Assembly (NCBI GenBank): GCA_017996395.1
Contig: JAGOHA010000017.1
Location: 1-41,961, forward strand
Direction: 5' to 3'
From: Acidobacteriota bacterium
Lineage (GTDB): Bacteria; Acidobacteriota; JAAYUB01
DNA length: 41,961 nucleotides
In this document: positions 5,620 to 41,860 of the stretch, one piece after another
Position numbering within the stretch: position 1 is the first letter of the stretch
Layout: every line of letters starts with the position of its first letter
The notes under the pieces: model-generated
What the model was told of the DNA's origin: nothing
Seen by the model: only the letters and a program-made list of their open reading frames with translations
Database searches by the model: none
Translations under genes and position numbers: made by a program

Positions 5620-8600
5620 ATGAGCGACAAGAAGATCTTGGTTGCTGACTACAACACGCGGGAGCTTCAGCAGCTGAAGAAGATTTTCACCGATGCCGGC
5701 TTTGAAGTCGTCACGGTGCAGGACGGAAAAGCGGCCCTCGACTCGTTCGAGGCGGACAAGCCGGACGTCGTGCTCCTCTCGGCCATGCTGTCCAAGATCA
5801 ACGGGTTCGACGTCTGCCGGAAGATCAAGGACACCGAGACCGGCCGCAACGTTCCGGTGATCATCGCCACCTCGGTGTACAAGGGCCAGAAGTACCGCAA
5901 TAAGGCCCTGCACGAAAACGGCGCCAGCGAATTCATCGAGAAGCCCGTGCCCGACAACGTCATCCTGGAAACCGTCCAGCGGTTCATGGGCGACACTCGG
6001 AGCCTCATCGACACGCACCGGAGCGAATTCATCGACAAGATGGCCAAGGAGTCGGTTGCCGAAGCTCCGCCGGCACCCCCGCCGAAGCCGGCCCCGGCAC
6101 CGGCGGCCAAGGCCCCGGCGCCGCCGCCCCAACCCGCTCCGGAACCGCCCAAGCCGAAACCGGCGCCCGCCGCTCCGAAACCCGCGGACGTGGAGAGCCG
6201 CTTCGAACAGGAGATCGCCGCGACGCTGATCGCCTCGGAAACCCCGGCGGCGGCCGAGATGGACGACTCCATGGACAAGCTGCTCAGCGACACGCTCTCC
6301 GGCCTGGGACTCGACCTCGGCAAGGGCAAGCCCAAGGCAGCCCCCGCGCCGGCGCCCCCGCCGCCGGTGGTCAGCGAAGCCAAGAAAACCGAGGCCGCCC
6401 TTGAAAAGCTCGTGGAGTCGGCCAGCCAGGCGACGGCGCCCCCGCCGCCGCTGCTCGGTCCCGACACCGGCGAAATCCGCTTCGACCAGTTGCAAAAGGA
6501 AGTGAAGGCAGCCGGGGAACCGGCCGCGGCCAAGGTGGACGCGGTGGAGGCTTTCCTCCGCTCCTTCGACACCGATCTGGAGAAGAAGCTCAGCGATACG
6601 CTCAGCGGCGTGGGCCTGTCCGACACCAGCATCGACAAGGTGATCCAGCCCAAGGCGGAGGAGCCGGCGCCGGTCGACTCGAAGCCGAAGCCCGCCCCCG
6701 TCCCGCCCCCCCCGGTGGAGCCCGAGCACGAGGAAGGCACCAAGTTCGGGGATTACATTCTGGACCGGAAGATCGGCCACGGCGGCATGGCGGAGCTGTT
6801 CCGCGCGAAGAAGCGGGGCCAGGAAGGCTTCCAGAAGATCGTCGCCATCAAGCGGATCCTGCCCCATCTGTCGGACAACCAGGAACTCGTCACCATGTTC
6901 ATCGACGAGGCGAAGATCGCCGCCCAGTTGTCCCACCAAAACATCGTCACCATCTTCGATTTCGGCAAGATCAACCACTCGTTCTACATCGCGATGGAGT
7001 TCGTGGACGGTTTCGATTTCAAAAAGATCCTGAGCCGGGCGAAGGAGCTGGGCATCCGGCTGCCCCACAAGCTCGCCGCCCACATCGCCCTGCAGATCGC
7101 CAGCGCGCTGGACTACGCGCACTTCAAGAAGGACTTCGGCAATAAGGAAATGAACATCGTCCACCGGGATGTCAGCCCGCAGAACATCCTGATCTCCCGG
7201 GAGGGCGAGGTGAAGCTGGTGGATTTCGGCATCTCCAAGGCCGAGTCCAAGATCCACCACACCGTCAAGGGGGCGCTCAAGGGCAAGCTCCTGTACATGA
7301 GCCCCGAACAGGCCTGGGGCAAGCCGGTGGACAAGCGGTCGGACCTCTTCTCGCTGGGCATCGTGCTCTGCGAGGCCATCAGCGGCAAGGTCCTGTTCGA
7401 GGATTCCTCCGAATTTGACGTCCTCGAGAAAGTCCGCTCCGGCAAGATCCCGATCCTTGAAAACGAGATGCCCTCCCTGCCGCCGCGGCTCAAGAACATC
7501 ATCAACAAGGCGCTCCAGATCGACATCGGCCAGCGCTACCAGACCGCCGGCGAAATGGCCAAGGACCTGCACGATTACCTCAGCACCGGCAAGCAGCGGC
7601 CGTCGCCCAAGGACCTGGCCACGTTCCTGACCCGGATGTTCCCCGACGCGTTCGGTTTGAAGGAGAGCGAGGTCCGCAACCTGAGCTTCGACGAGTTCAT
7701 GGAGCGGGAAGATGCCCTGCCGCCGAAGGCCATGAGCGAGGAGACGGTCATCCTGGAATCCGAGGAGATGGCCGGCCTCGAAGAGATCCGCCCCGCCGCG
7801 GAGATGCCGGTGGCGCTCGAAGAAGACGAGATCGTGGTGGACGGCAAGTTCCAGCCGCCGCCGCTGGTGCAGGAGCCGATCCCGCCCAAGAAGGCCGCCG
7901 CCCCGCCGATCGCGCCCGTCGAGGAAAAACCGGCGGTGATCCGCAAGGAAAAGAAGAAGGCGCCCGAGCCGGTCAAGCCGAAAGCGGAACCGGTGAAGGC
8001 GAAGGTGGAGCCCGCGCCACCGCGGAAGGAGGCGCCGCCGCCGAAGAAGGAGGCGGTCCCGCCGCCGAAGAAGGAAGCCGTGCCCCCGCCGGCTGAGGAA
8101 AAGAAAGTCCTCACGAAGCGGTTGAAGGAGAAGCCGGCGGCCGAAAAACCGATGTTCGGTGATGTGGCGGCCGCGTCGAAGAGCTCCAACAAGGGACTGG
8201 TCATCGGCATCATCGCCGCCCTGGTGATCATCGCGGCGGGTGTGGCCGCCTACCTGATGTTCTTCAACAAGCCGGCTGTGCCGGGGCAGCCGGAACCCAT
8301 CGCCGCGGGCGCCACCGAACCGGCCGCTCCGGGTGAACCGACTCCTGCCGCCGGCGAACCGACCGCGCCCGCCGGCACCACCCCCGCCGCCACTCCGGCG
8401 GCGGCGACCGATGCCAAGCCTGAAACCAAGCCCCAGCCGCAACCCGCTCCGACCAAACCGGGCCAGCCGACGACGGTGGCCCAGCAGCCGCAACCCACGC
8501 CGGCACCGGCGAAACCAGCCACGACTGCCGCGACTCAGCCGGCAGCCCAGCCCGTCGCCCAGCCGGCCGAACCGAAACCGGAACCGGCGAAACCGGCAAC

Positions 8601-9096
8601 CCAGCCGGAACCGGCCGCCCAACCGGCCGCACCAAAGCCGGAACCGGCGACTCAACCCGCGGCCCAGCCGGCGGCCCCAAAGCCGGAGCCGACTCCCCAG
8701 CCGGCGGCTCCGAAGCCGGAACCGGCGAAACCGGCGACCCCGCCCGCGGCGGCGGACATCTCCATGGACCTGCCGGCGGCCGCCGAGAAGGCCAAGACCG
8801 GCGACCTGGTGGCCCTGGGGCCCGACGTCAAGCCGCCGAAGGAATTGCGGACCCCCTCGCCGCGGATCCCGGCCCAGGCCCAGCGCCTCAACCTCAAGGG
8901 CCGCCTGGTGTGCCGGCTGCTCGTGTCCCACACCGGCGAGGTGGAGCGGGTGCTCATCGTCTCGGCCGATTCGGTCCGGGTGAAGGAGATGCTGGGCCCT
9001 GCGGCCGAGGAGGCCCTGAAGCAATGGCGCTACACGCCGGCCGAGAAGGACGGCGTGAAGGTGAAGGTTTGGAAAACGGTGACGCTGTCGTTCTAG
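5620..9096 (+). CDS. Pseudo-receiver / Ser-Thr kinase / transmembrane / TonB C-terminal fusion protein
   Basis: A 1158-residue signalling protein. Residues 1-125 resemble a response-regulator receiver, but the phospho-acceptor Asp is Ser54 (VVLLSAML) and the acidic pair is Asp10-Tyr11; the Lys of EKP is kept. After a Pro/Ala linker carrying two copies of LSDTLSG(L/V)GL (about 222 and 324), a Hanks-type kinase spans about 375-650: glycine loop IGHGGMAELF (385-394), Lys411 of VAIK, HRDVSPQN with Asp517 and Asn522, DFG at 535-537, then a SPEQ motif. All catalytic residues are present. One membrane span lies at about 859-880, then a long P-K-P-E-P-A repeat region and a TonB C-terminal domain (about 1080-1158). 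The kinase should be cytoplasmic and the TonB domain periplasmic. Partners are unknown. Confidence 0.9.
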   Translation: MSDKKILVADYNTRELQQLKKIFTDAGFEVVTVQDGKAALDSFEADKPDVVLLSAMLSKINGFDVCRKIKDTETGRNVPVIIATSVYKGQKYRNKALHENGASEFIEKPVPDNVILETVQRFMGDTRSLIDTHRSEFIDKMAKESVAEAPPAPPPKPAPAPAAKAPAPPPQPAPEPPKPKPAPAAPKPADVESRFEQEIAATLIASETPAAAEMDDSMDKLLSDTLSGLGLDLGKGKPKAAPAPAPPPPVVSEAKKTEAALEKLVESASQATAPPPPLLGPDTGEIRFDQLQKEVKAAGEPAAAKVDAVEAFLRSFDTDLEKKLSDTLSGVGLSDTSIDKVIQPKAEEPAPVDSKPKPAPVPPPPVEPEHEEGTKFGDYILDRKIGHGGMAELFRAKKRGQEGFQKIVAIKRILPHLSDNQELVTMFIDEAKIAAQLSHQNIVTIFDFGKINHSFYIAMEFVDGFDFKKILSRAKELGIRLPHKLAAHIALQIASALDYAHFKKDFGNKEMNIVHRDVSPQNILISREGEVKLVDFGISKAESKIHHTVKGALKGKLLYMSPEQAWGKPVDKRSDLFSLGIVLCEAISGKVLFEDSSEFDVLEKVRSGKIPILENEMPSLPPRLKNIINKALQIDIGQRYQTAGEMAKDLHDYLSTGKQRPSPKDLATFLTRMFPDAFGLKESEVRNLSFDEFMEREDALPPKAMSEETVILESEEMAGLEEIRPAAEMPVALEEDEIVVDGKFQPPPLVQEPIPPKKAAAPPIAPVEEKPAVIRKEKKKAPEPVKPKAEPVKAKVEPAPPRKEAPPPKKEAVPPPKKEAVPPPAEEKKVLTKRLKEKPAAEKPMFGDVAAASKSSNKGLVIGIIAALVIIAAGVAAYLMFFNKPAVPGQPEPIAAGATEPAAPGEPTPAAGEPTAPAGTTPAATPAAATDAKPETKPQPQPAPTKPGQPTTVAQQPQPTPAPAKPATTAATQPAAQPVAQPAEPKPEPAKPATQPEPAAQPAAPKPEPATQPAAQPAAPKPEPTPQPAAPKPEPAKPATPPAAADISMDLPAAAEKAKTGDLVALGPDVKPPKELRTPSPRIPAQAQRLNLKGRLVCRLLVSHTGEVERVLIVSADSVRVKEMLGPAAEEALKQWRYTPAEKDGVKVKVWKTVTLSF

Positions 9097-23777: not shown

Positions 23778-24440
23778 GGCGTTTCTCCTCGGCGGCCTGT
23801 TGCCCCTATTGTAATGCGCCGCCCGCCGGGGCGCAACCGGGAGGCGGAACGGTGAACGGTGAACAGTGAACAGTGAGGAGATAGGAGTTCCTTGCCCGTC
23901 GTGCTCGTCATTCGTAATCGTGATCGTAATCGTAATCGTGATCGCCATCGCCATCGCCATCGCCATCGCCATCGAGACTCGAGGCTCGTTCCCGGCCACC
24001 GGGTCTCGCGGTTCGGGGTTCGGGGCTCGGCACTCGCAACCAAGGATCAACCATCAACTATCAACCTTCAACAATAGTCGGACTTGGGACCTGGGACATG
24101 GGTTCTGGTTGTCGGACTTTGGACCTGGGACCTGGGTGCTAGGTCCTTGCTGACAAATCCCAGATCCAATGATGATGAACGAATGCCGCAGCTGAAGCGG
24201 CGGCAAACAATCAAGATGATGGACCACCCGACTATGAGGCGCGCCGGCATGGCGTTATGCTACGGGAATCGGCGCCTGGCACAGCTGCTGCCGCCGAGCA
24301 TCGACGACTGCGTGCCGACCGCCCGCCCCGGGCGAATGGTCTGATCAGAATGCGCCGGCGCTGGACGCCATCCGGTGGTGGAAATGACACGCCGCGATAT
24401 GGATCGATTTTCTGGTGGGGCGTCAGGGTGACGGACCCAT
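23778..24440. repeat. Gene-free region with modular repeat copy D
   Basis: From about 23850 come GGTGAACAGTGAACAGTGAGG, then CGTAATCGTGATCG units passing into a run of ATCGCC hexamers (about 23941-23970), the block CTCGAGGCTCGTTCCCG (to 23994), CAACCATCAACTATCAACC, and from 24076 GGGACCTGGGACATGGG units. Orientation is as in copy G. From about 24165 to 24440 I see no gene, terminator or promoter that I can defend. Confidence 0.75.
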
Positions 24441-27326: not shown

Positions 27327-29678
27327 TTAAAACACCTCGAAGGTCCCTTCGGCCACCTTCTGGCCGGCCACGAATAGCTCCACCCGATAGACGCCGGGCG
27401 CCCAGGTACCGGGCTCGCGTCCGCCGAAACCCATGAAGTGGGACGAACTGGTCCACGGCGATTGGATGAAATAATTCTGCGTCTGCCGGTTGAGGAGCGA
27501 GCCGTCCGGTCCGAAGCAGAAGGATTCAATCGAAAAATCGATCCGCCGGCCCGGGTCCGGATAGGCGAGATTGGTCTCCCACCAGACGAGCCGGGTGGTG
27601 GACCGGGGGAACCGCGTGGTGTAGACCCGTTGCTCCGCGGGGACCGCGTCGATCCCGCTCTCGAAGAATTTCACGCTGGTCACCGTGGCCTGCAGCGACG
27701 GGATGCCGGCCGCCGGCTCGCGCGTCAGCCCCTCCATGATCCGGGCGGCCAGGTCGAGGTCGATGGGCTCCGCGGGACGATCGGCGCCGAAGATACCCGC
27801 CGTGTCCGTGGCATCCGCCGTGCCCGTGGCATTCGCCGTCCTCGTGGTATCCGCCACGCGTTGCGGCTCCCCACGGTCTGCATTTTCCCAGGACACGTAC
27901 CGGATGTTCTCCCAGACCCGATCCAGTTGGGCGGGATCGAAGGCCGCCGTGACGGCCGGCTGGGCGGGCGCGCAGGTGGCCACCTGGCCGGATCGGAGGT
28001 CCACCCGGGCGTCCCCCCGGCCGGCGTGCAGCACCGGCTTCCCCTCGAGCACGAAGAATTTCAACCGGGCGTCCGCCTCCGGCTGGACGTACACCTCCGA
28101 CTCCAGCTCCAGGTACTGGATGTCGCTGAGCACCGTGTCGCCGGCGTGCCAGGAGAACACGCCGTACTTCTTGGCGTTGGCCATGGCCGGGCCCACGCCC
28201 GGGATCCGGCGCAGCACCCACTCCACCGGGTTGGGAAATTTGTGGACTTTGTTGAATGCATCTCTCGACGAGCCGTCGAAGGTCTCGTTGGGTACCTGGG
28301 TGAAGAGGATCCCGTAATCACGCAGCGTCCGGCCCCAGCGGTTGGTGATCTCGCCCGAGAGACCCCGCGTGACTCCCACCGTGAACTGCCCCCCGCCCAC
28401 CGTGTACAGACCCGGCCGGTAGAATGCCCGGCCCCGCACCCCGCCCTCCCACTCCAGGTCGACGCTGGAAAGGATCGGCCACCGGGTGTCACCGCCCGCC
28501 GTCCGGGTGACCCGCTGGCCGGTGTCGGCCAGCACCACCCGGTCGCCGTCATACAGCCAGGCCGAATGGATGGCTTCGGCGTCGGCGCTCCGGTCCGCCG
28601 GCGGGGCGGCGCTGTCCCGCACGAACAGGGCGCCGTCTTTCCGGGCGACGTCCTGTTTTCGGATGACGAAGACTTTTCCCGACACGCCCTTGATTTCGGC
28701 CGCCGGCGCCGGCACGTCCACCTCGATCCGGAAGCGGTCTTCGTAGGCCAGCGCGCGGTTGGAAGGCATGTGGTACCGGCGGTCCAGCAGGTCCACCCGG
28801 AGGGTGATGGGGCCGGTGCGTTCGGTGGTCAGCACGCGCTCCACCCGGATTTCGCGCTCGGACACCGCAATTGAAGCGTCGCCGGGCTCTGAATTGAGGA
28901 CCTGGTCGCCCAGGCGCACGGCGACCAGCACGTCGCCGGGCCGAGGATTTCCCGTGGCCTGCGGATACCGGACGTAGGCGATGACGGTGAGCGCGGCGCG
29001 GGTTCGGGAGAGATGCTGCAGCCGGACCCGGGCGCTGTGGATCCGGGGCGGATCGGGGCTGGCTGCCGGCTGGATCAGCCCGAAGATGGTCTCGGCGACG
29101 CTCCGGGCCGTCCGGCCGGCGGTGCCGTCGTCCACCACGGATTCGTCCAGGCGGTTGTACACGCTCACCCAGAGAAACCATCCGTCCCCGACTGCCTCCA
29201 CCTTGTAGGCGGGGCGGCCCACGGGCGTCCCGTCCCGCTTGACGCTCTCGAAGTACTTGTACATGGTGCTCCGGCTGCCGATCCCGAAGTTTTCGGCGAG
29301 GACCTCCCACCGCTTCCGCTGGATTTCGCCGATGGCCCAGTTGAAGTGTTCCTCCGCCTCGTCGGCGGCGTTGAATTTTTTCAAGTCGATGTACACGTGG
29401 GGGATGTTGGTGCCGCCGTACCGGGCCAACGCCTGGCTGGCGTAGGCATAGCCTTTGGTCACACTCGAAGTCGGCGAGACGCCCACATGAGGATCCTTGG
29501 GAGTCCAGCCGGCCAGGTGGCGGTCGGTCTGAATGGCCCGCTGGACGATTTCGGCCGGGTCACCCTGGCCGGCGACAGAGACCGCGCAGATGACCAGCCC
29601 GGCGAGCACGACGATCATCCGTCCTGCGTCCGTTTTCAGACCGTTTCTCCGCCTCCGGTTTCTGCTCGTGGTCATCAT
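27327..29678 (-). CDS. Large exported protein, function unknown
   Basis: A 783-residue protein. MMTTSRNRRRRNGLKTDAGR is a long basic N-region, followed by MIVVLAGLVICAVSVAG, a signal-peptide core. The rest is soluble and beta-rich. Residues about 40-210 hold GGTNIPHVYIDLKKFNAADEAEEHF and the repeated theme of an energy- or state-sensing domain I cannot name; the middle has a FecR-like stretch (SGKVFVIRKQDVARKDGALF, then YDGDRVVLADTGQRV); the C-terminus (TSVKFFESGIDAVP to the end) looks Ig-like. An 18-base tandem repeat encodes TTRTAN-ATGTAD-ATDTAG. AGGAGG precedes the tandem ATGs at 29678; ATG 29618 is an alternative. A strong promoter lies 160 bases upstream. Confidence 0.72.
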   Translation of the reverse strand: MMTTSRNRRRRNGLKTDAGRMIVVLAGLVICAVSVAGQGDPAEIVQRAIQTDRHLAGWTPKDPHVGVSPTSSVTKGYAYASQALARYGGTNIPHVYIDLKKFNAADEAEEHFNWAIGEIQRKRWEVLAENFGIGSRSTMYKYFESVKRDGTPVGRPAYKVEAVGDGWFLWVSVYNRLDESVVDDGTAGRTARSVAETIFGLIQPAASPDPPRIHSARVRLQHLSRTRAALTVIAYVRYPQATGNPRPGDVLVAVRLGDQVLNSEPGDASIAVSEREIRVERVLTTERTGPITLRVDLLDRRYHMPSNRALAYEDRFRIEVDVPAPAAEIKGVSGKVFVIRKQDVARKDGALFVRDSAAPPADRSADAEAIHSAWLYDGDRVVLADTGQRVTRTAGGDTRWPILSSVDLEWEGGVRGRAFYRPGLYTVGGGQFTVGVTRGLSGEITNRWGRTLRDYGILFTQVPNETFDGSSRDAFNKVHKFPNPVEWVLRRIPGVGPAMANAKKYGVFSWHAGDTVLSDIQYLELESEVYVQPEADARLKFFVLEGKPVLHAGRGDARVDLRSGQVATCAPAQPAVTAAFDPAQLDRVWENIRYVSWENADRGEPQRVADTTRTANATGTADATDTAGIFGADRPAEPIDLDLAARIMEGLTREPAAGIPSLQATVTSVKFFESGIDAVPAEQRVYTTRFPRSTTRLVWWETNLAYPDPGRRIDFSIESFCFGPDGSLLNRQTQNYFIQSPWTSSSHFMGFGGREPGTWAPGVYRVELFVAGQKVAEGTFEVF
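27802..27855. repeat. In-frame 18-base tandem repeat, three units
   Basis: Units at 27802-27819, 27820-27837 and 27838-27855 read GTGTCCGTGGCATCCGCC with a few changes. On the coding strand they add six residues each to the large exported protein, so copy-number change would preserve the frame. Confidence 0.8.
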
Positions 29679-29844
29679 GCCGCCTCCTGGGATCTGTGTT
29701 CTGTCATCCCCGCCGGCCCTTCCATTGGCTGAATCTGTGATAGTCCCTCCCGACAGCGACACCGTCAGCGTGCACTCGCCTGCTCGTCGGTTGACTCGCG
29801 CCGGCTACCGTAGAGGATTCATTCCACCTGATGAATATATTTCG

Positions 29845-29946: not shown

Positions 29947-29976
29947 TGGACGCCGCCGCCTGTTTCCCGCTATACT
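29947..29976 (+). promoter_or_regulatory. Candidate promoter of the kinase-like gene
   Basis: TGGACG (29947-29952), an 18-base spacer and TATACT (29971-29976). It lies downstream of an in-frame upstream start at 29931 and so supports the GTG start at 30006. Confidence 0.6.
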
Positions 29977-30005
29977 GCACCGGCAGTGGAACCGGAGGAG
30001 CCGAC

Positions 30006-31310
30006 GTGCTGACGCCCGAACTGCGCCGCATCTTCGCCGCCTGGGGCCACCCCGTGGACGAGGCGGCGGCGGCGCGTTTCCTCGCCGGTTACGCCGACCC
30101 CGCCGCGGCGGCCCGGGAGATGGTCGCGTTCGCCCAGGCCGGCGCCGCCGGGGAGTTGGGCATCCCGTTCGACCCGGCCGCCTTCCTCGCCGACACCTTT
30201 CTGGCCCGCAACCTGCCGCTCCTCACCGACCGGGCCGGCGCCGCGCTGTTGCGCTTCCCGCCCGGCTCGCCCGTTTATGCCGTGGCGGCCCGAACGGCGC
30301 CCACCCTCGTCGCCGTTCAGCTGGAGGCCGCTTTCCCCGGCCTGGCCGAGGTCCTGCCGCGGCTCTGCCCGACGCTGTCGGCGCCGGTGAACCTCGCCGG
30401 GGCGGTGGCCGACGTGGCCTGGGAGGACGTCAAGACCGGCGTCATGGGCGCCACCACCGGCGCGTTCCACGTCCGCCTGGGCGGGGCGGCGGCCGGGCAG
30501 CGCCTGGTTCTCAAACAGATGGACATGGCGGTGGAGCGGGTCCTGGCGGCGATGGTCGCCGAGGTGTTCGAACTCCCGGCGGTGGACATTCTTTGGACCG
30601 GCTCCGCCTGGTCCGCCATGCGGCCGGTGGCCGGCCGGTCGCTGCGCGATATCTCGGGCAATCCCCTCACCGAGCCGAGGCGCCGGTGCTGGAGCCCGGC
30701 GGCGGTGGCGCGCGTGGCCGAAGAGCTGGGCCGGGAGTCGGCGCTGGCGTGGTCATGCCGACTCTTCGGCCGGCACAGCGGCAACCTCATCGCCACCCAC
30801 CCGGATGACCTTGCGGAAGGCGGCTACGTCCGGATCGACTTCGGCCAGTCGCTGCTCCCGTCGCGCAACCGCTATCTCGAGGCGGTGATGCCGCTCTGGC
30901 ACCTGCGCCGCTTCTTCCCCGCCGAGGGAACCGGCGGCTATGAGGAGCCACCGGTGTGCGCCGCCGTGGCGCGCGGCTTCACCGGCATCGCCGCGACGGC
31001 GCGGCGTGCCCGCGCCGCCGTCGCGCGGCATCTGGCGGCGGCGGTGGGCCTGCCGCTTCCCGAAATGGACGGCGAAGCGCCGGATCCCCGGGTGACGCCC
31101 GCTCATGTGGCAGCGGTTGTGGCGGAACTTGAGGCAGGGCCGGAACCGGCGGCGGCGTTCAACGAGCTGTACAGCCGGTTCTACCAGGGGTTCTGGCAGG
31201 TGCACGGCTGGCAGGAGCACCTCCCGCCCGCCGACCACCGCCAGGAGCTGAGCGCCGACGAGTTCCACGGCCTGCTGCCGGAGCGCACCTGGATCGAGGA
31301 GCAAGGGTGA
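30006..31310 (+). CDS. Protein with phosphoinositide-kinase-like catalytic motifs, function unknown
   Basis: A 434-residue soluble protein. Residues 165-285 resemble the kinase core of PI3/PI4-kinase and related folds: VLKQMD with Lys170 as a possible ATP lysine, LPAVDILW then MRPVAGRSLRDI, and GRHSGNLI (255-262) followed by VRIDFGQSL with Asp278-Phe279-Gly280. In lipid kinases these are DRHxxN and HIDFG; here the catalytic Asp of DRH is Gly255, so either the chemistry differs or the enzyme is inactive. The N-terminal 150 residues and C-terminal 120 are helical and unassigned. The GTG start follows GGAGGAG by 5 bases. No bacterial family could be named. Confidence 0.6.
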   Translation: MLTPELRRIFAAWGHPVDEAAAARFLAGYADPAAAAREMVAFAQAGAAGELGIPFDPAAFLADTFLARNLPLLTDRAGAALLRFPPGSPVYAVAARTAPTLVAVQLEAAFPGLAEVLPRLCPTLSAPVNLAGAVADVAWEDVKTGVMGATTGAFHVRLGGAAAGQRLVLKQMDMAVERVLAAMVAEVFELPAVDILWTGSAWSAMRPVAGRSLRDISGNPLTEPRRRCWSPAAVARVAEELGRESALAWSCRLFGRHSGNLIATHPDDLAEGGYVRIDFGQSLLPSRNRYLEAVMPLWHLRRFFPAEGTGGYEEPPVCAAVARGFTGIAATARRARAAVARHLAAAVGLPLPEMDGEAPDPRVTPAHVAAVVAELEAGPEPAAAFNELYSRFYQGFWQVHGWQEHLPPADHRQELSADEFHGLLPERTWIEEQG

Positions 31311-31508
31311 ATAGGATAATGGGTGAATCGGTGAATGGGTGAATCGGTGAATCGATCCTTTCGTGCTCGTAATCGTGCTCGTGATCGCAATCGTGATCGT
31401 AATCGAGGCTCGATGCTCGAGACTCGAGGCTCGTTCCCGTAACGCGGACATCGGATATCGGACATCGGTCTGCAGCATCCGATTCCCAGTATCCGAGTCC
31501 CGACGCAT

Positions 31509-31766: not shown

Positions 31767-32108
31767 ATGACATCCAAAGCTCTCATCGCCGCTTCGGCCA
31801 AGCCCATCATCCTGTCGCTACTCCTGACAGGGGAGAGTTACGGTTACGAGATCCTGCAGCGGGTCCGCCAGGTGTCGGGCGGCCGGCTCGGCTGGTCCAG
31901 CGCCATGCTCTACCCGGTGCTCCATCGGCTGGAGAAGGACGGCCTCATCCGCTCCGAGTGGAAGCTCTCCGAGGAGGGGCGGATGCGCAAGTACTACACC
32001 CTGTCCGACGCCGGGCGTCTGGAGCTGGCGGCCGAAAAGGAGGACTGGACCGCCGTCACGGCCTCGCTGGCCCGGCTCTGGGGCCGGATCGAAGCGGCGG
32101 AGGAGTAG
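31767..32108 (+). CDS. PadR-family transcriptional regulator
   Basis: A 113-residue winged-helix regulator. The PadR signature is clear: AKPIILSLLLTGESYGYEILQRV (helices 1-2), SSAMLYPVLHRLEKDGLI (recognition helix), the wing EEGRMRKYYTLSDAGRLEL, then a short C-terminal dimer helix. Such regulators usually repress a neighbouring transporter gene and bind small hydrophobic compounds. GTGAGGA precedes the ATG. The permease gene follows after 9 bases, so the two form an operon, the usual arrangement for this permease family. Autoregulation through the ATATGTA repeats at the promoter is possible but unproven. Confidence 0.93.
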   Translation: MTSKALIAASAKPIILSLLLTGESYGYEILQRVRQVSGGRLGWSSAMLYPVLHRLEKDGLIRSEWKLSEEGRMRKYYTLSDAGRLELAAEKEDWTAVTASLARLWGRIEAAEE

Positions 32109-32117
32109 GGGGGCGCC

Positions 32118-34745
32118 ATGTTCGATCTGGAAGACTCCATCCGGCAGTGGAAGCGGGAGCTGGCGGCCAGCTCGGCGCTGGAGGACGGCTATGTCGCGGA
32201 GCTCGAGGCGGGACTGCGGGACGAAGTGGCCGCCCGCGTGCGTTCGGGCCAAGCGGAGGAGGCGGCGTTCCGCGAGGCGGTGGCGGGGATGGGGGACGTC
32301 GAGGCGGTGGGCGCCGAGTTTCACAAGGTGTACACCACCCGCCGCTCCGGGCGCCCGCCCTGGCAGGCGCCCCTCTGCCTGTCGCCGCTCGTGTGGAACA
32401 TGGTCAAGGTCGCCGTGCGGCAGATGCGCCGCTACAAGGGGTACGCCCTGATCCACGTGGCCGGGCTGACGGTGGGCATGCTCTGCTTCCTGCTCATCAC
32501 GGTCTGGGTGCGGGACGAGCTGAGCTTCGACGGCTTCCACGTCCACAAGGACCGGGTCTACCGAGTGCTGTACGCCGAGCGCGACGGCGGCCTGCACACC
32601 GCGGTGTCGTACGCGCTGCCGCCCGGGATGGCCGCGGAGATCCCCGAGGTGGAGGCGAGCGCCCGGGTGTGGCCCTGGACCGGCTCCCTGGTGATCCGCG
32701 GCGACATCCGCCACCAGGAAGACGCCATCCACCTGACCGATCCCGACTTTTTCCGGATGTTCAGCTTCGAGTTCGTCCGCGGAACTCCGGAGATGGCGCT
32801 TCCCGACCTGCACTCGGTGGTCCTGACCGAGTCCGCCGCGCGGCGGTACTTCGGGGACGACGAACCGCTCGGCCAGACCTTGCATGTCGCGGAGATCGAC
32901 GAGGACTTCCGGGTCACCGGCGTCATCCGGGACCTGCCGCCCAACTCCCACCTGCAGTTCGAATTGGTGGGCCGGGTGGAATGGCTGGGCGAGGACCGGC
33001 TGGCGCGGTGGGAGGAGTGGGTGGCGCCCGCCTACGTCATGCTCCGGCCGGGGGCTTCCGCCGAAGCGGTGGAGGCCAAGGCGGCATCTCTGTTCCGGAG
33101 GGAGCTGGGCGAGATGCAGCGGATGATCTCGCCGGTGCTGCAGCCGTTGCCCCAAGTCCACCTCCGCGAGGACGGGACGCCGGCGAACCTGAGCCGGGTG
33201 GTCATCTTCTCCGGCATCGCGCTGTTGATCCTGGTCGTCGCTTGCGTCAATTTCATGAACCTGAGCACCATGCGGGCCACGCTCCGGGCACGGGAGGTGG
33301 GCCTGCGCAAGGTGGTGGGAGCCTCCCGCCTGCTGGTGGCCGCCCAGTTCATCGCCGAGGCGATGGTGCTGGCGGTGCTGTCCATGGGGCTGGCGGTGCT
33401 CGGCGGCTATCTGCTCCTGCCGCTGGTGAACGAGGCGGCTGGCCTGTCGCTGCGACTATTCGGCGACGACGCGTGGGGAATGTTCGCCATCCTGGCGGCG
33501 GCGACGCTGGTCACCGGACTGGTCTCCGGCAGCTACCCGGCGTTCGTGCTGTCGGCCTTCCGCCCAGTTGACACCCTCCGGAGCCGCGCCGCCGGCGGCC
33601 GCGGCGGCGTGCTGTTCCGCAAGGTCCTCATCGTCTTCCAACTCACCGTTTCGGTGGGGTTGCTCCTGTGCACCCTCGTCGTGGCCCGGCAGCTACGGTA
33701 CATTCAGGACAAGGACCTGGGGCTGAACCGGCATCAGGTGGTGGTCCTGTTCAACAACCCGCGATTGAACCGGGATTTCGACGCGTTCAAGGCGCAGCTC
33801 GAGTCACGCGCCGGAATCGTGCGCGTCACCGCCGCCTCCCAGAATCCCACCGACGTGGGCACGGGGCTGGGCGTGTGGCCCGAGGGAGGGACGGACCGTG
33901 ACCAGATCGGATTCGGCTACTGCGACGTGGACTACGATTTCTTCGAGACCTTTCGGATGACTGTCGTGCGGGGCCGGGCGTTCTCGCGGGCTTTCCCCGC
34001 CGACGCCGCTGAGGGTTGCCTGATCAACGAGAAGGCGGCCGCCGCGCTGGGGTGGCCCGATCCGGTGGGCCGCCGCCTCCATTTCAACCATCCCGGCGTC
34101 GATCCGGTCCGCCAGCGGCTGCGCGTCATCGGCGTGGTGCGGGATTTCCACTCCCGGCCGCTACGCGAGGCGGTGCAGCCGTTTCTGTTCCGGATGTACC
34201 GCCCCTGGCACTCCCGGGTGTTCGTCCGGGTGAGGCCGGACCGCGTGCCGGAGGCGCTGGCCGCCATCGGGGAGGTGTTCGGCGCGTTCGCGCCCGAATA
34301 CCCGTTCCGCTATATCTTTTTGAGCGAGTTGTATCAGCGACAATACCGGGCCGATCACCAGTTGGGGTTGCTGTTCGACCTGTTCAGCCTGCTGGCGTGC
34401 TTCGTGGCCGGCCTGGGACTGTTCGGCTTGTCCGCGTTCACGGCGGAGCGGATGACCAAGGAGATCGGCGTCCGCAAGGCGTGCGGTGCGCCGACCCGGG
34501 ATATCGCCACCCTGATCCTGCGGAAGTATGCCGGCCTCGTCCTGGCGGCCAACCTGCTGGCCTGGCTGGCCGGCTACCTGCTGATGACGGCGTGGCTGGA
34601 CCAGTTCGCCTACCGGGTACCACTGGAACCCGGAGTGTTCTTGGCCGCCTCCGGTCTGATGGTGCTGGTGGTGGGGGTGTCGGTGGGCTACCGGACCTAC
34701 CGGGCGGCGACGGCCCGGCCGGTGGACGCGCTCCGTTACGAATGA
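32118..34745 (+). CDS. FtsX-type ABC permease with N-terminal prefix domain (orphan, acidobacterial type)
   Basis: An 875-residue inner membrane protein. Residues 1-80 are a helical permease prefix domain (LEDSIRQWKRELAASSALED, then AFREAVAGMGDVEAVGAEF). A first membrane span (YALIHVAGLTVGMLCFLLI, about 112-132) leads to a MacB-type periplasmic domain and an FtsX unit of three spans with REVGLRKVVGASR; a second periplasmic domain and FtsX unit with KEIGVRKACGAPTRD follow, ending ARPVDALRYE. Two FtsX units give about eight spans. The family works with a MacB-like ATPase in export or mechanotransmission, but no ATPase gene is adjacent, the 'orphan' state known for acidobacterial duplicated permeases. 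AGGGGGGCGCC precedes the ATG. Substrate unknown. Confidence 0.9.
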   Translation: MFDLEDSIRQWKRELAASSALEDGYVAELEAGLRDEVAARVRSGQAEEAAFREAVAGMGDVEAVGAEFHKVYTTRRSGRPPWQAPLCLSPLVWNMVKVAVRQMRRYKGYALIHVAGLTVGMLCFLLITVWVRDELSFDGFHVHKDRVYRVLYAERDGGLHTAVSYALPPGMAAEIPEVEASARVWPWTGSLVIRGDIRHQEDAIHLTDPDFFRMFSFEFVRGTPEMALPDLHSVVLTESAARRYFGDDEPLGQTLHVAEIDEDFRVTGVIRDLPPNSHLQFELVGRVEWLGEDRLARWEEWVAPAYVMLRPGASAEAVEAKAASLFRRELGEMQRMISPVLQPLPQVHLREDGTPANLSRVVIFSGIALLILVVACVNFMNLSTMRATLRAREVGLRKVVGASRLLVAAQFIAEAMVLAVLSMGLAVLGGYLLLPLVNEAAGLSLRLFGDDAWGMFAILAAATLVTGLVSGSYPAFVLSAFRPVDTLRSRAAGGRGGVLFRKVLIVFQLTVSVGLLLCTLVVARQLRYIQDKDLGLNRHQVVVLFNNPRLNRDFDAFKAQLESRAGIVRVTAASQNPTDVGTGLGVWPEGGTDRDQIGFGYCDVDYDFFETFRMTVVRGRAFSRAFPADAAEGCLINEKAAAALGWPDPVGRRLHFNHPGVDPVRQRLRVIGVVRDFHSRPLREAVQPFLFRMYRPWHSRVFVRVRPDRVPEALAAIGEVFGAFAPEYPFRYIFLSELYQRQYRADHQLGLLFDLFSLLACFVAGLGLFGLSAFTAERMTKEIGVRKACGAPTRDIATLILRKYAGLVLAANLLAWLAGYLLMTAWLDQFAYRVPLEPGVFLAASGLMVLVVGVSVGYRTYRAATARPVDALRYE

Positions 34746-34853: not shown

Positions 34854-35846
34854 ATGGGCGAAGACATTCTCATCCAGGCGGCGAGGTTTTCGCCGGACGG
34901 ACGGCGCATGCTCACCGGCAGCGTGGACGGCGTGCTGGCGGAGTGGGACGCGAATAGCGCCCGGCGCCGCCGCCTCCTGCTGGATCCAGCGGGGAATGAG
35001 GATCACCCGGCAGCACCGCACGCGGGCGCCTTTGGGGAAGGGGCCCCGCCTCCCGGAACGGACATACTGGCGGCCGTCCGCGGCGGCTCCATCACGGCGG
35101 TCGCCTGGTTTCCCGATGGCCGGCGCTATGCCGCGGCCGTCGCCAACGGCTGGGCCGCGGTCTGGGACGCCGGGTCCGGCCGGGCGCTCTGCGCCTGGGA
35201 GGCGGACGCCACGGCCGTCGTTGTGATCGAGGTTTCACCCGACGGCCGGTGGCTGGCCACCGGCAGCTGCGAAACCGGCACCACCACGCTGCGCGTCTGG
35301 CGGATCGGGGAATCGTGGGCGGCACCACCCGTCGAGGCGTTTTCGAGCGACCGCATGATCGGCGGCGTCTTTTCGCTGTCGTTCTCCCCCGATAGCCGCT
35401 CGCTGGCTTCGGGCGGCTGGGGGTTCTCGGGTTACAGCGCGCCCATGATCTACGACGTGAACACCGGTGAGCGGGTCAACACCCTGCCCTGGGATGCCAG
35501 CCGAGCCATCAGTTTTTCCCCGGACGGCCAACGGCTGGCCACGGGAGACGAGTTCGGCAAGGTCAGCGTCTGGGACCTCGAGCGGCGGGCCCGGCTGGTC
35601 GAAAAGGAGGCGCACGGCGGAATCGTCAGCCTCGTCCTGTTTTCGCCCGACGGGCGGTCGCTCCTGTCCGGCAGCTGCGACGGCGGCCTGAAGCTTTGGG
35701 ATGCCGCCAGTGGCGAACTCCGGATGGAACAGGCGTACGACGGCCTGGTCCTGGACGGCCGGTTCGAGGGGGACGGCCGCGGCGCGGCCGTCGTCACCGG
35801 CGTCCGGGGCGATGAGCGCCCGCGGATCCATCAGGTGAGGTTCTGA
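34854..35846 (+). CDS. Seven-bladed WD40 repeat protein
   Basis: A 330-residue protein made almost only of WD40 blades. Repeats centre on FSPDGRRMLTGSVDG, FPDGRRYAAAVANGWAAVWD, SPDGRWLATGSCETG, FSPDSRSLASGGWGF, FSPDGQRLATGDEFGKVSVWD, FSPDGRSLLSGSCDGGLKLWD and a last, degenerate FEGDGRGAAVV blade, enough for a closed seven-bladed propeller. There is no signal peptide, so it is probably a cytoplasmic binding scaffold or sensor. Blade 1 is followed by an acidic/proline insertion (residues 45-70). No catalytic domain is attached. The stop codon is 4 bases from that of the convergent TIR gene; in many bacteria WD40 sensors and TIR effectors are fused, which makes a functional pair conceivable. Confidence 0.9.
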   Translation: MGEDILIQAARFSPDGRRMLTGSVDGVLAEWDANSARRRRLLLDPAGNEDHPAAPHAGAFGEGAPPPGTDILAAVRGGSITAVAWFPDGRRYAAAVANGWAAVWDAGSGRALCAWEADATAVVVIEVSPDGRWLATGSCETGTTTLRVWRIGESWAAPPVEAFSSDRMIGGVFSLSFSPDSRSLASGGWGFSGYSAPMIYDVNTGERVNTLPWDASRAISFSPDGQRLATGDEFGKVSVWDLERRARLVEKEAHGGIVSLVLFSPDGRSLLSGSCDGGLKLWDAASGELRMEQAYDGLVLDGRFEGDGRGAAVVTGVRGDERPRIHQVRF

Positions 35847-35850
35847 CCCG

Positions 35851-36621
35851 TCAGGCCTCGTCGGGCGGGGTCGGGGGCGGACCATCCGATCCGTCACCGT
35901 AGCACCAGGGGATGAGTGCCCGGATCGCCGCGGGATCGGCGATGACCGGCTCCATCTCGAACATGCCGAAACCGCCGGCCGCCGCCACCTCCGGCGCCCG
36001 CGCCGGGTCGCCCAGGGCGACAATGGTTGCGCCGGTGCATTCGATGGGGAGGGCGGTGAACTGTTCGGCCGAGGCGCGATCCAGGTGGCAGACGCAATCC
36101 GGATCGGCGGCGTTCGGCAACCGCAAGTCCACCGCCGGCAGACGGTATTTACGGATCAAAGCGGTGATCTCGGGCGGCCATTGGGTGCGCCGGCCGCGCG
36201 GGGCGCCGCACGCCGTCAGCCGGTCGGCGATCGCCGGGACCGCCGGCCACGGATCGTCCGGCGGCAGCACCAGGGGATCCGCGGCCGCGAGCGTCCGGGC
36301 GGTCTCGTCCGCCTGGCGGCTCAGTTCGCCGGCGGTCAGCCGGTCCAGAACGGGCAGCAGCGGTTTCCCGGTTCCCCGGATCGCTTGAATGTCGCCGTGG
36401 AACCAATGCGTGGCCCGCTTTCCCCAGACGGCGGGCGTGACGACCGCCAGCACCGCCGCGCACTCCGCCAGCCGCCGCTCGTTCTGGCCCGCCAACGACG
36501 GACCGTGGCAGCCGTCGCGCCAGCGGTACCAGGTGTGGAACCCCTGGATATCCAGCCCGCGGGCCAGGGTCCGGGCCAGCGGCTCGTCGGCCGGGACGTA
36601 GGTGATGAAGACGAAGCTCAT
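35851..36621 (-). CDS. TIR domain fused to an MshEN-like (GspE N-terminal) domain
   Basis: A 256-residue soluble protein. Residues 1-95 are a TIR domain: FVFITYVPADEPLARTLARGL, GFHTWYRWRDG, NERRLAECAAVLAVVTPAVWG and HWFHGDIQAIRGTGKPLLPVL. The position of the catalytic Glu of NAD-cleaving TIR domains (four after the Trp, as in SARM1) is Asp77 here. Residues about 156-240 match the alpha/beta part of the GspE/MshE N-terminal domain: YRLPAVDL, then DRASAEQFTALPIECTGATIVALGDPA, and MEPVIADPAAIRALI. In MshE this domain helps bind cyclic di-GMP, but the RLGxxL helical half is absent. ATG 36621 is preferred because AAGGA lies 5 bases upstream; ATG 36627 has none. Convergent with the WD40 gene at 4 bases. 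Confidence 0.8.
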   Translation of the reverse strand: MSFVFITYVPADEPLARTLARGLDIQGFHTWYRWRDGCHGPSLAGQNERRLAECAAVLAVVTPAVWGKRATHWFHGDIQAIRGTGKPLLPVLDRLTAGELSRQADETARTLAAADPLVLPPDDPWPAVPAIADRLTACGAPRGRRTQWPPEITALIRKYRLPAVDLRLPNAADPDCVCHLDRASAEQFTALPIECTGATIVALGDPARAPEVAAAGGFGMFEMEPVIADPAAIRALIPWCYGDGSDGPPPTPPDEA

Positions 36622-36774
36622 GGGCATCCTTCGGCGAGGCTCGGGGCTGGAAGCTTGAGACTCGCTCCCGATCGATCCAGCAATCGCAGGTTTACAGGTT
36701 CACAGGTTCGAAGGTTCAGGCCCACAATCATCGGCGTACTCGTTCTCGCCATCGTCATCGTCATCGACTACCTG
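36622..36774. repeat. Short modular repeat remnant, copy F
   Basis: This gap carries GAGGCTCGGGGCTGG, GAGACTCGCTCCCGATCG, four tandem GGTTCACAGGTTCGAAGG-type units and ATCGTCATCGTCATCG. It shares the CTCG...TCCCG and ATCG modules with the other copies but lacks the GGGACCTGGG arms. Orientation is as in copy G. Confidence 0.6.
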
Positions 36775-41419: not shown

Positions 41420-41860
41420 AGTGAGGAGTAAGGAGTGCGGATCCGTGCTCGTAAATCGTAATCGTAATCGTGATCGTGATCGTAATCGTGATCGTAATCG
41501 TGATCGAGGCTCGAGCCTCGAGGCTCGTTCCCGATCATCGGACATCGGAATTCGGACCTGGGTCTTGGGTTCCGGGTCCCAGGTCTTGGGTTCTAAATCT
41601 TGGGTTCCAGGTCCAAGATCCCAGCTCCTTGTTCCCAGAGATCCGGTTCCAGTCTCCAGGTTTCAGTCCCCAGGTCCCAGATCCCAGATCCCATGATCAG
41701 CAAATACGGACTCGACTCCAAATAGCCAATAAAATATAAGCAATTCGCAATAACCATTAAATGGAAAATGACAAATGAACGATGATCGATGAAAAATGAT
41801 TGATCCCTTCGTGCCCTTCGTGACTTTGTGGTGGATCGGTCCGAATCCGGCAGGAAATCG
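41398..41860. repeat. Modular intergenic repeat, copy G (most complete)
   Basis: Module order on the plus strand: GTGAAGAGTGAGGAGTAAGG; CGTAATCGTGATCG units (about 41454-41505); CCTCGAGGCTCGTTCCCG (41516-41533); ATCATCGGACATCGG; GACCTGGGTCTTGGG units; complementary CCCAGGTCCCAGATCCC arms; an AT-rich block (41721-41763) also present inverted in copy B; and CCCTTCGTGACTTTGTGG near 41815. It is the reference for the other copies. No gene is credible. Confidence 0.8.

Follow-up and report, generated by a model that had tools for sequence, protein, structure and literature searches.

What kind of protein carries the paired motifs of a kinase active site with glycine in the place of the catalytic aspartate? 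This question is raised by an open reading frame in a 41,961-nucleotide stretch of an Acidobacteriota genome (the whole of which is here called the window), where the initial annotation had noted GRHSGNLI followed 16 residues later by RIDFGQSL. The protein encoded, P0001, counts 434 amino acids from a GTG codon to the stop. We report that its gene is maintained by selection, that genuine copies have so far been found in a single genus only, and that P0001 probably derives from a kinase by degeneration or repurposing, as judged from its motifs, its conservation and profile comparisons.

A gene under purifying selection

Among three species of the genus, substitutions in the P0001 gene fall mostly on third codon positions (27, 21 and 76; 42, 35 and 125; and 43, 32 and 132 at the first, second and third positions, respectively), and dN/dS is low, at about 0.23, 0.20 and 0.17. 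P0001 is therefore a real gene under purifying selection. The GTG start at position 30006 is supported by a conserved GGAGGA sequence and by an indel just 5' of the start in one orthologue, which puts any earlier start out of frame. The features of the locus are collected in Table 1.

Table 1. Features of the P0001 locus, with positions counted in the window.
Feature	Position	Strand	Basis
P0001 gene, orphan kinase-like protein	30006..31310	+	ORF and purifying selection
Ribosome-binding site GGAGGA	29994..29999	+	6 nt 5' of GTG; identical in 3/3 species
TATACT, possible -10 element	29971..29976	+	Conserved in 3/3 species; no -35 element assigned
N-terminal part, residues 1-130, Ala-rich, probably helical, may cap the N-lobe	30006..30395	+	Helices in low-confidence model
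Invariant run WEDVKTGVMGATTGAFHVRL, residues 139-158, at glycine-loop / beta1-beta2 position	30420..30479	+	Third longest invariant run
Invariant run, residues 166-184, beta3-type lysine K170 and helix with E177	30501..30557	+	Conservation; K170 aligned to Lys of solved APH (GQxLxLK)
Hinge-like SAMRPVAGRSLRD, residues 203-215	30612..30650	+	ABC1 profile alignment; ordered-pattern test
GRHSGN, residues 255-260, catalytic-loop position, Gly for expected catalytic Asp	30768..30785	+	
IDFG, residues 277-280, metal-binding Asp D278, within longest invariant run (273-315)	30834..30845	+	
C-terminal part, residues 345-434, without known relative	31038..31307	+	
WD40 protein gene	34854..35846	+	Next gene 3' of P0001 orthologue in both sister genomes

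Kinase motifs and their conservation

The two 8-mers GRHSGNLI (residues 255-262) and RIDFGQSL (residues 276-283) are separated by 13 residues, and R276 lies 16 residues after N260, just as the initial annotation had it. Its reading of glycine for the catalytic Asp also holds, Gly255 being found in all three species. LVLK carries K170, and at the level of sequence an ordered beta3 Lys, loop Asn and DFG-type Asp are present at plausible spacing (K170, N260 and D278). A further kinase mark, absent from the initial annotation, is the hinge-like segment SAMRPVAGRSLRD ordered between K170 and GRHSGN. When P0001 was aligned by MAFFT with a FAM20-like family (alignment A4, a mixed alignment used for column register only, to avoid the circularity of a fold predicted from it), K170, R256, N260, I277 and D278 fell on conserved columns. 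E177 is conserved in the orthologues but lies off the conserved Glu column of that family.

K170, H257, N260 and D278 are retained in all P0001 orthologues. None of the 26 columns within three residues of positions 170, 255, 260 and 278, at which the initial annotation had proposed, ahead of any alignment, that homologues be compared, is variable, against a mean of 4.98 over circular shifts, and only 5 of 433 shifts were as low. With wider windows of 5, 7 and 10 residues around the four positions, 39, 112 and 151 of the 433 shifts were as low; this weakening of the signal shows that the effect is local. The longest invariant runs are 273-315, 407-427, 139-158 and 166-184, followed by 391-404 tied with 251-264, so that four of the six (273-315, 139-158, 166-184 and 251-264) are kinase motif segments. 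The conservation sample comprises three distinct orthologues only, with 89 and 85% identity to P0001, and invariance of a single residue is weak evidence among so few and such close sequences. Near the loop no conserved acid that could stand in for the missing one was found, residues 267, 268 and 271 being variable in these orthologues.

Chance does not account for the motif pair in a protein of this composition. A loose version (R[HN]xxN followed by [ILVMF]D[FHLYWN][GSTQ]) arose in 69 of 1,000,000 shuffles of P0001 and a strict version (RHxGN followed by IDFG) in none of 1,000,000, while beta3 Lys, hinge, HxxN and DFG in that order arose once in 300,000; all of these patterns were written after P0001 had been seen, which makes the chance figures optimistic. 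In a six-frame translation of 893,338 amino acids the loose pair was matched only by the P0001 family and by one true kinase-like family, retrieved beforehand through its match to PI3/4-kinase (PF00454). The ordered four-part pattern was matched only by the P0001 family in a six-frame translation of 1,164,887 amino acids. None of the fetched kinase loci in that scan fits it, and the pattern is thus specific, not sensitive.

An orphan so far found in one genus

Among 60 relatives, P0001 copies were found in its own genome and in two others of the same genus. Across the phylum, a search with the P0001 profile A1 matched 6 of 396 genomes, three being those of the genus and three giving weak partial matches, and a search with the core profile A2 matched 115 of the 396 genomes at E up to 1, again with three from the genus. 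The motif pair was present in none of the eight weak loci that were read (7 of the 17 other loci fetched with A2 and one of the three weak loci from A1). One locus from these searches (L021) showed a likeness to the RIDFGQ stretch that was rejected as an off-frame reading of another ORF, which we take to be acyl-CoA-synthetase-like. No copy was found in viral contigs, and plasmids and phages gave no match at E up to 1 and only chance matches up to E 10.

An exact-word scan of a collection of 84,980 species, which detects close relatives only and could let distant ones in other phyla escape, returned two loci. The first has no mismatch where it aligns, and the whole of its 7,070-base contig, labelled Planctomycetota, is identical to the window; the second, at 89%, belongs to a sister labelled Acidobacteriota. 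The search at the level of the class took in two genomes only. On these sequence searches P0001 is classed as an orphan, with genuine copies found so far in one genus only.

Relationship to known kinase families

No match to P0001 was found in Pfam, NCBIfam or PHROGs at E up to 10, nor in PADLOC at E up to 1. This includes PI3/PI4-kinase (PF00454) and APH (PF01636), both at E up to 10, as well as HipA (PF07804) and HipA_2 (PF20613), for neither of which the host genome itself has a match. The names SEHBP and DUF697, obtained below the Pfam threshold on pieces of P0001 or of an orthologue, were judged to be chance. With home-made kinase HMMs (hmmsearch), P0001 scored no better than its shuffles, of which 249, 549 and 47 in 1000 were as good for FAM20/PI3-like, HipA and APH, respectively.

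Profile-profile comparisons (hhalign) were made against families built here, and all probabilities were below 3%. The best score was obtained with an APH profile of 25 sequences, which aligned to the P0001 core on the catalytic loop and the DFG motif with a score of 20.9-21.2 and a probability of 2.8%. None of 200 column shuffles and none of 293 background pieces reached this score; of 54 window pieces one did, and it comes from the gene at 5620-9096, which itself looks like a kinase. APH 7s3l was also the best PDB sequence match of the P0001 profiles (E 1.4 with A1 and 0.46 with A2) and came second, at E 1.7, in a single-sequence search that gave only weak matches overall. The 7s3l match covers the N-lobe, a different stretch from that aligned with the APH profile, and K170 is in register with the N-lobe Lys. 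P0001 differs from APH in lacking the HxDxxxxN motif of that family, the His of HxD falling at position 253: P0001 has Leu253 and Gly255.

The gene at 5620-9096 (+) encodes an ORF of 1158 amino acids, whose residues 381-570 match the APH profile strongly (score 47.1), and it probably contains a real kinase domain.

P0001 shares with PI3/PI4-kinases and with the FAM20/PI3-4K-like family A6 the elements R-[HN]-x-G-N and I-D-[FH] at similar spacing, but the Asp of DRH is Gly. Scores as good as the 19.4-20.0 obtained with A6 came from 5 of 200 shuffles, from 4 of 54 window pieces, among them the kinase-like piece of 5620-9096, and from 6 of 293 background pieces. The ABC1/UbiB profile (PF03109) scored 19.2, with the helix, the hinge and both motifs (H-x-G-N and D-F-G) aligned, but 2 of 150 shuffles were as good, Pfam gave no match, and the D of D-P-H-P-G-N is Gly in P0001. 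The HipA and HipA_2 profiles aligned off the motif, with 6 of 200 and 30 of 150 shuffles as good.

The family A6 (L031-L060) is a bacterial FAM20-like family of the phylum with DRNxGN followed by LIDHSRAF, and many of its rows have a hydrophobic, signal-like N-terminal stretch. The likeness to FAM20 is seen in the matches of its profile to solved FAM20A/FAM20C (E 2e-14 to 1e-11); each of its 24 members also matches PF00454 at E up to 0.1. In the phylum, 36 of 297 genomes have PF00454 matches at E up to 0.01.

The initial annotation had suggested that P0001 may be a divergent kinase, AMPylator or pseudo-enzyme, had likened its motifs to those of PI-kinases and had proposed a comparison with PI3/4-kinase and HipA folds. 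Of these, divergent kinase or pseudo-enzyme suits P0001 best. A kinase-like nucleotide site stands at the level of motifs and conservation, and the specific links to PI-kinase and HipA do not. An R-H-x-G-N / I-D-[FH] pair is common to PI3/4-kinase-, FAM20- and ABC1-type kinases, and APH gives the best profile, so the PI-kinase label is without support beyond the motif: PF00454 is not matched, the Asp of DRHxxN is missing with IDFG present, and A6 does not rise above background. HipA falls with the absence of a PF07804 match and the off-motif alignments. A literature search found no paper tying the motif string DRHxxN to bacterial kinases. The evidence favours placing P0001 in the PKL superfamily without singling out a branch.

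AlphaFold2 models were of very low confidence, both for full-length P0001 with three sequences (pLDDT 35.2) and for residues 115-350 with two sequences (pLDDT 35.9). The order of secondary structure in the core model is kinase-like, but the confidence is too low for this to count. Foldseek and VIA-align with the same model gave unrelated matches and no kinase fold among the rows shown, which is uninformative either way. A kinase fold for P0001 is thus no more than likely.

Genomic context

In both sister genomes the P0001 orthologue is followed by the WD40 gene and then by a gene for a TIR-type protein on the other strand. In the window, a pair made up of a PadR regulator and a MacB/FtsX permease (31767-34745) lies between P0001 and the WD40 gene, and in the closer sister nothing but short repeat matches corresponds to the segment 31388-34867 at this site. 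Adjacency of P0001 and the WD40 gene is therefore not obligatory.

The TIR-type protein of the window (35851-36627, -) has 258 amino acids and full-length orthologues in both sister genomes. Its TIR_2 domain matches at E 2.5e-8; at the C-terminus lies an MshEN-like domain whose match, at E 1.8e-4, falls slightly short of the Pfam cut-off. MshEN domains bind cyclic di-GMP elsewhere, and no paper on the combination of TIR and MshEN was found in the literature. Divergently oriented to P0001 lies a gene for an 811-amino-acid protein (27327-29762, -) without a Pfam match, syntenic in the sister genomes. Short intergenic tandem arrays, with units such as GGTGAATC and ATCGTAATCGTG, occur at 31306-31354, 31361-31405, 23899-23974 and 41449-41506, and stretches related to them are found again in the window and in sister contigs.

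Possible function of P0001

The most likely function of P0001, to judge from its residues, is that of a nucleotide-responsive regulatory pseudokinase. In the proposed layout, the helical N-terminal part would be followed by an N-lobe comprising a glycine-rich pair of strands (139-158), K170 and a C-helix, in which E177 is a possible constituent, then by the hinge (203-215), the catalytic loop GRHSGN, the putative metal ligands N260 and D278, and a helical C-terminal part. P0001 would bind ATP and Mg, and the nucleotide or a partner could change its shape, making it a regulatory or scaffold pseudokinase, while ordinary phosphate transfer would have been lost. That P0001 is a nucleotide-binding pseudokinase of kinase-like layout, devoid of the usual phosphotransfer, we consider moderately probable.

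The LanM dehydratase CylM, which has a lipid-kinase fold, offers a biochemical analogy. As described in PMC4550811, it shares D/G-x-H-x-x-N followed by D and has helices before the N-lobe; no modification of the substrate occurred with the D347A and D364A mutants even on prolonged incubation, H349A was still active, if slow, and N352A gave partial products. P0001 differs in having Gly at the equivalent of Asp347 and no visible cyclase domain or elimination motif. By this analogy P0001, which is without the first Asp but has the His, the Asn and the later Asp, has probably lost ordinary phosphotransfer and may have kept ATP/Mg binding. A similar combination is described for the Legionella pseudokinases Llan_0165 and Lspi_2187, in which, according to PMC9758233, the catalytic Asp is lost and the N171 and D184 equivalents are kept. 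Most of the seven families of bacterial pseudokinases reviewed in PMC12599244 lack the beta3 Lys and the DFG that P0001 keeps; Pfam and NCBIfam relate P0001 to none of these pseudokinase families, and the comparison is by description only. Nucleotide binding was found in 13 of 31 surveyed pseudokinases and is not reliably predictable from sequence, as stated in PMC4718504.

The main rival to the regulatory pseudokinase is altered transferase chemistry. P0001 would then be an active PKL enzyme that transfers AMP or another group without an Asp base, or that transfers phosphate by using His257 or some other residue as the base. Retention of K170, H257, N260 and D278, with active-site segments among the most conserved of the protein, goes beyond what a pure scaffold would need, and pseudokinases that transfer other groups are on record in PMC10211241, namely SelO in AMPylation and SidJ in glutamylation. 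Nevertheless, there is no conserved acid near the site to replace the missing one, Pfam and NCBIfam reveal no similarity to SelO, and the nearest tested analogue, CylM D347A, is dead (PMC4550811), all of which leaves such an enzyme rather unlikely.

A resemblance due to chance or convergence, in a genus-specific fold unrelated to kinases, would agree with the lack of significant homology to any profile, the lack of a reliable model and the orphan distribution. This explanation is nonetheless unlikely in our estimation, in view of the ordered multi-part pattern, the focus of conservation on the motifs and an APH profile score above that of all non-kinase background.

A bolder proposal is that P0001 founds a separate PKL family, known so far from one uncultured genus, in which Gly at the Asp position marks a changed chemistry such as transfer of AMP or another group and His257, Asn260 and Asp278 would hold the nucleotide; we regard it as quite improbable. 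P0001 could also be a diverged APH- or ABC1-type kinase that phosphorylates small molecules or proteins in the ordinary way, with an Asp supplied from elsewhere in the chain. This would fit the top-scoring profile, the hinge aligned with ABC1 and the K170-N260-D278 spacings (90 and 18 against 99 and 13 for K72, N171 and D184 in PKA numbering), but with no strictly conserved candidate Asp near the loop and with Leu253 where APH has the His of HxD, such a kinase is very unlikely.

A subfamily label such as PI-kinase is unreliable when drawn from motifs alone, and reading motifs can nevertheless flag kinase-like proteins that were missed by the profile libraries searched here. The bacterial pseudokinases that fall outside the eukaryote-like Ser/Thr kinase group have been little explored, and P0001, if the preferred interpretation is true, would be an orphan test case for the role that a PKL nucleotide site can play once phosphotransfer is lost.
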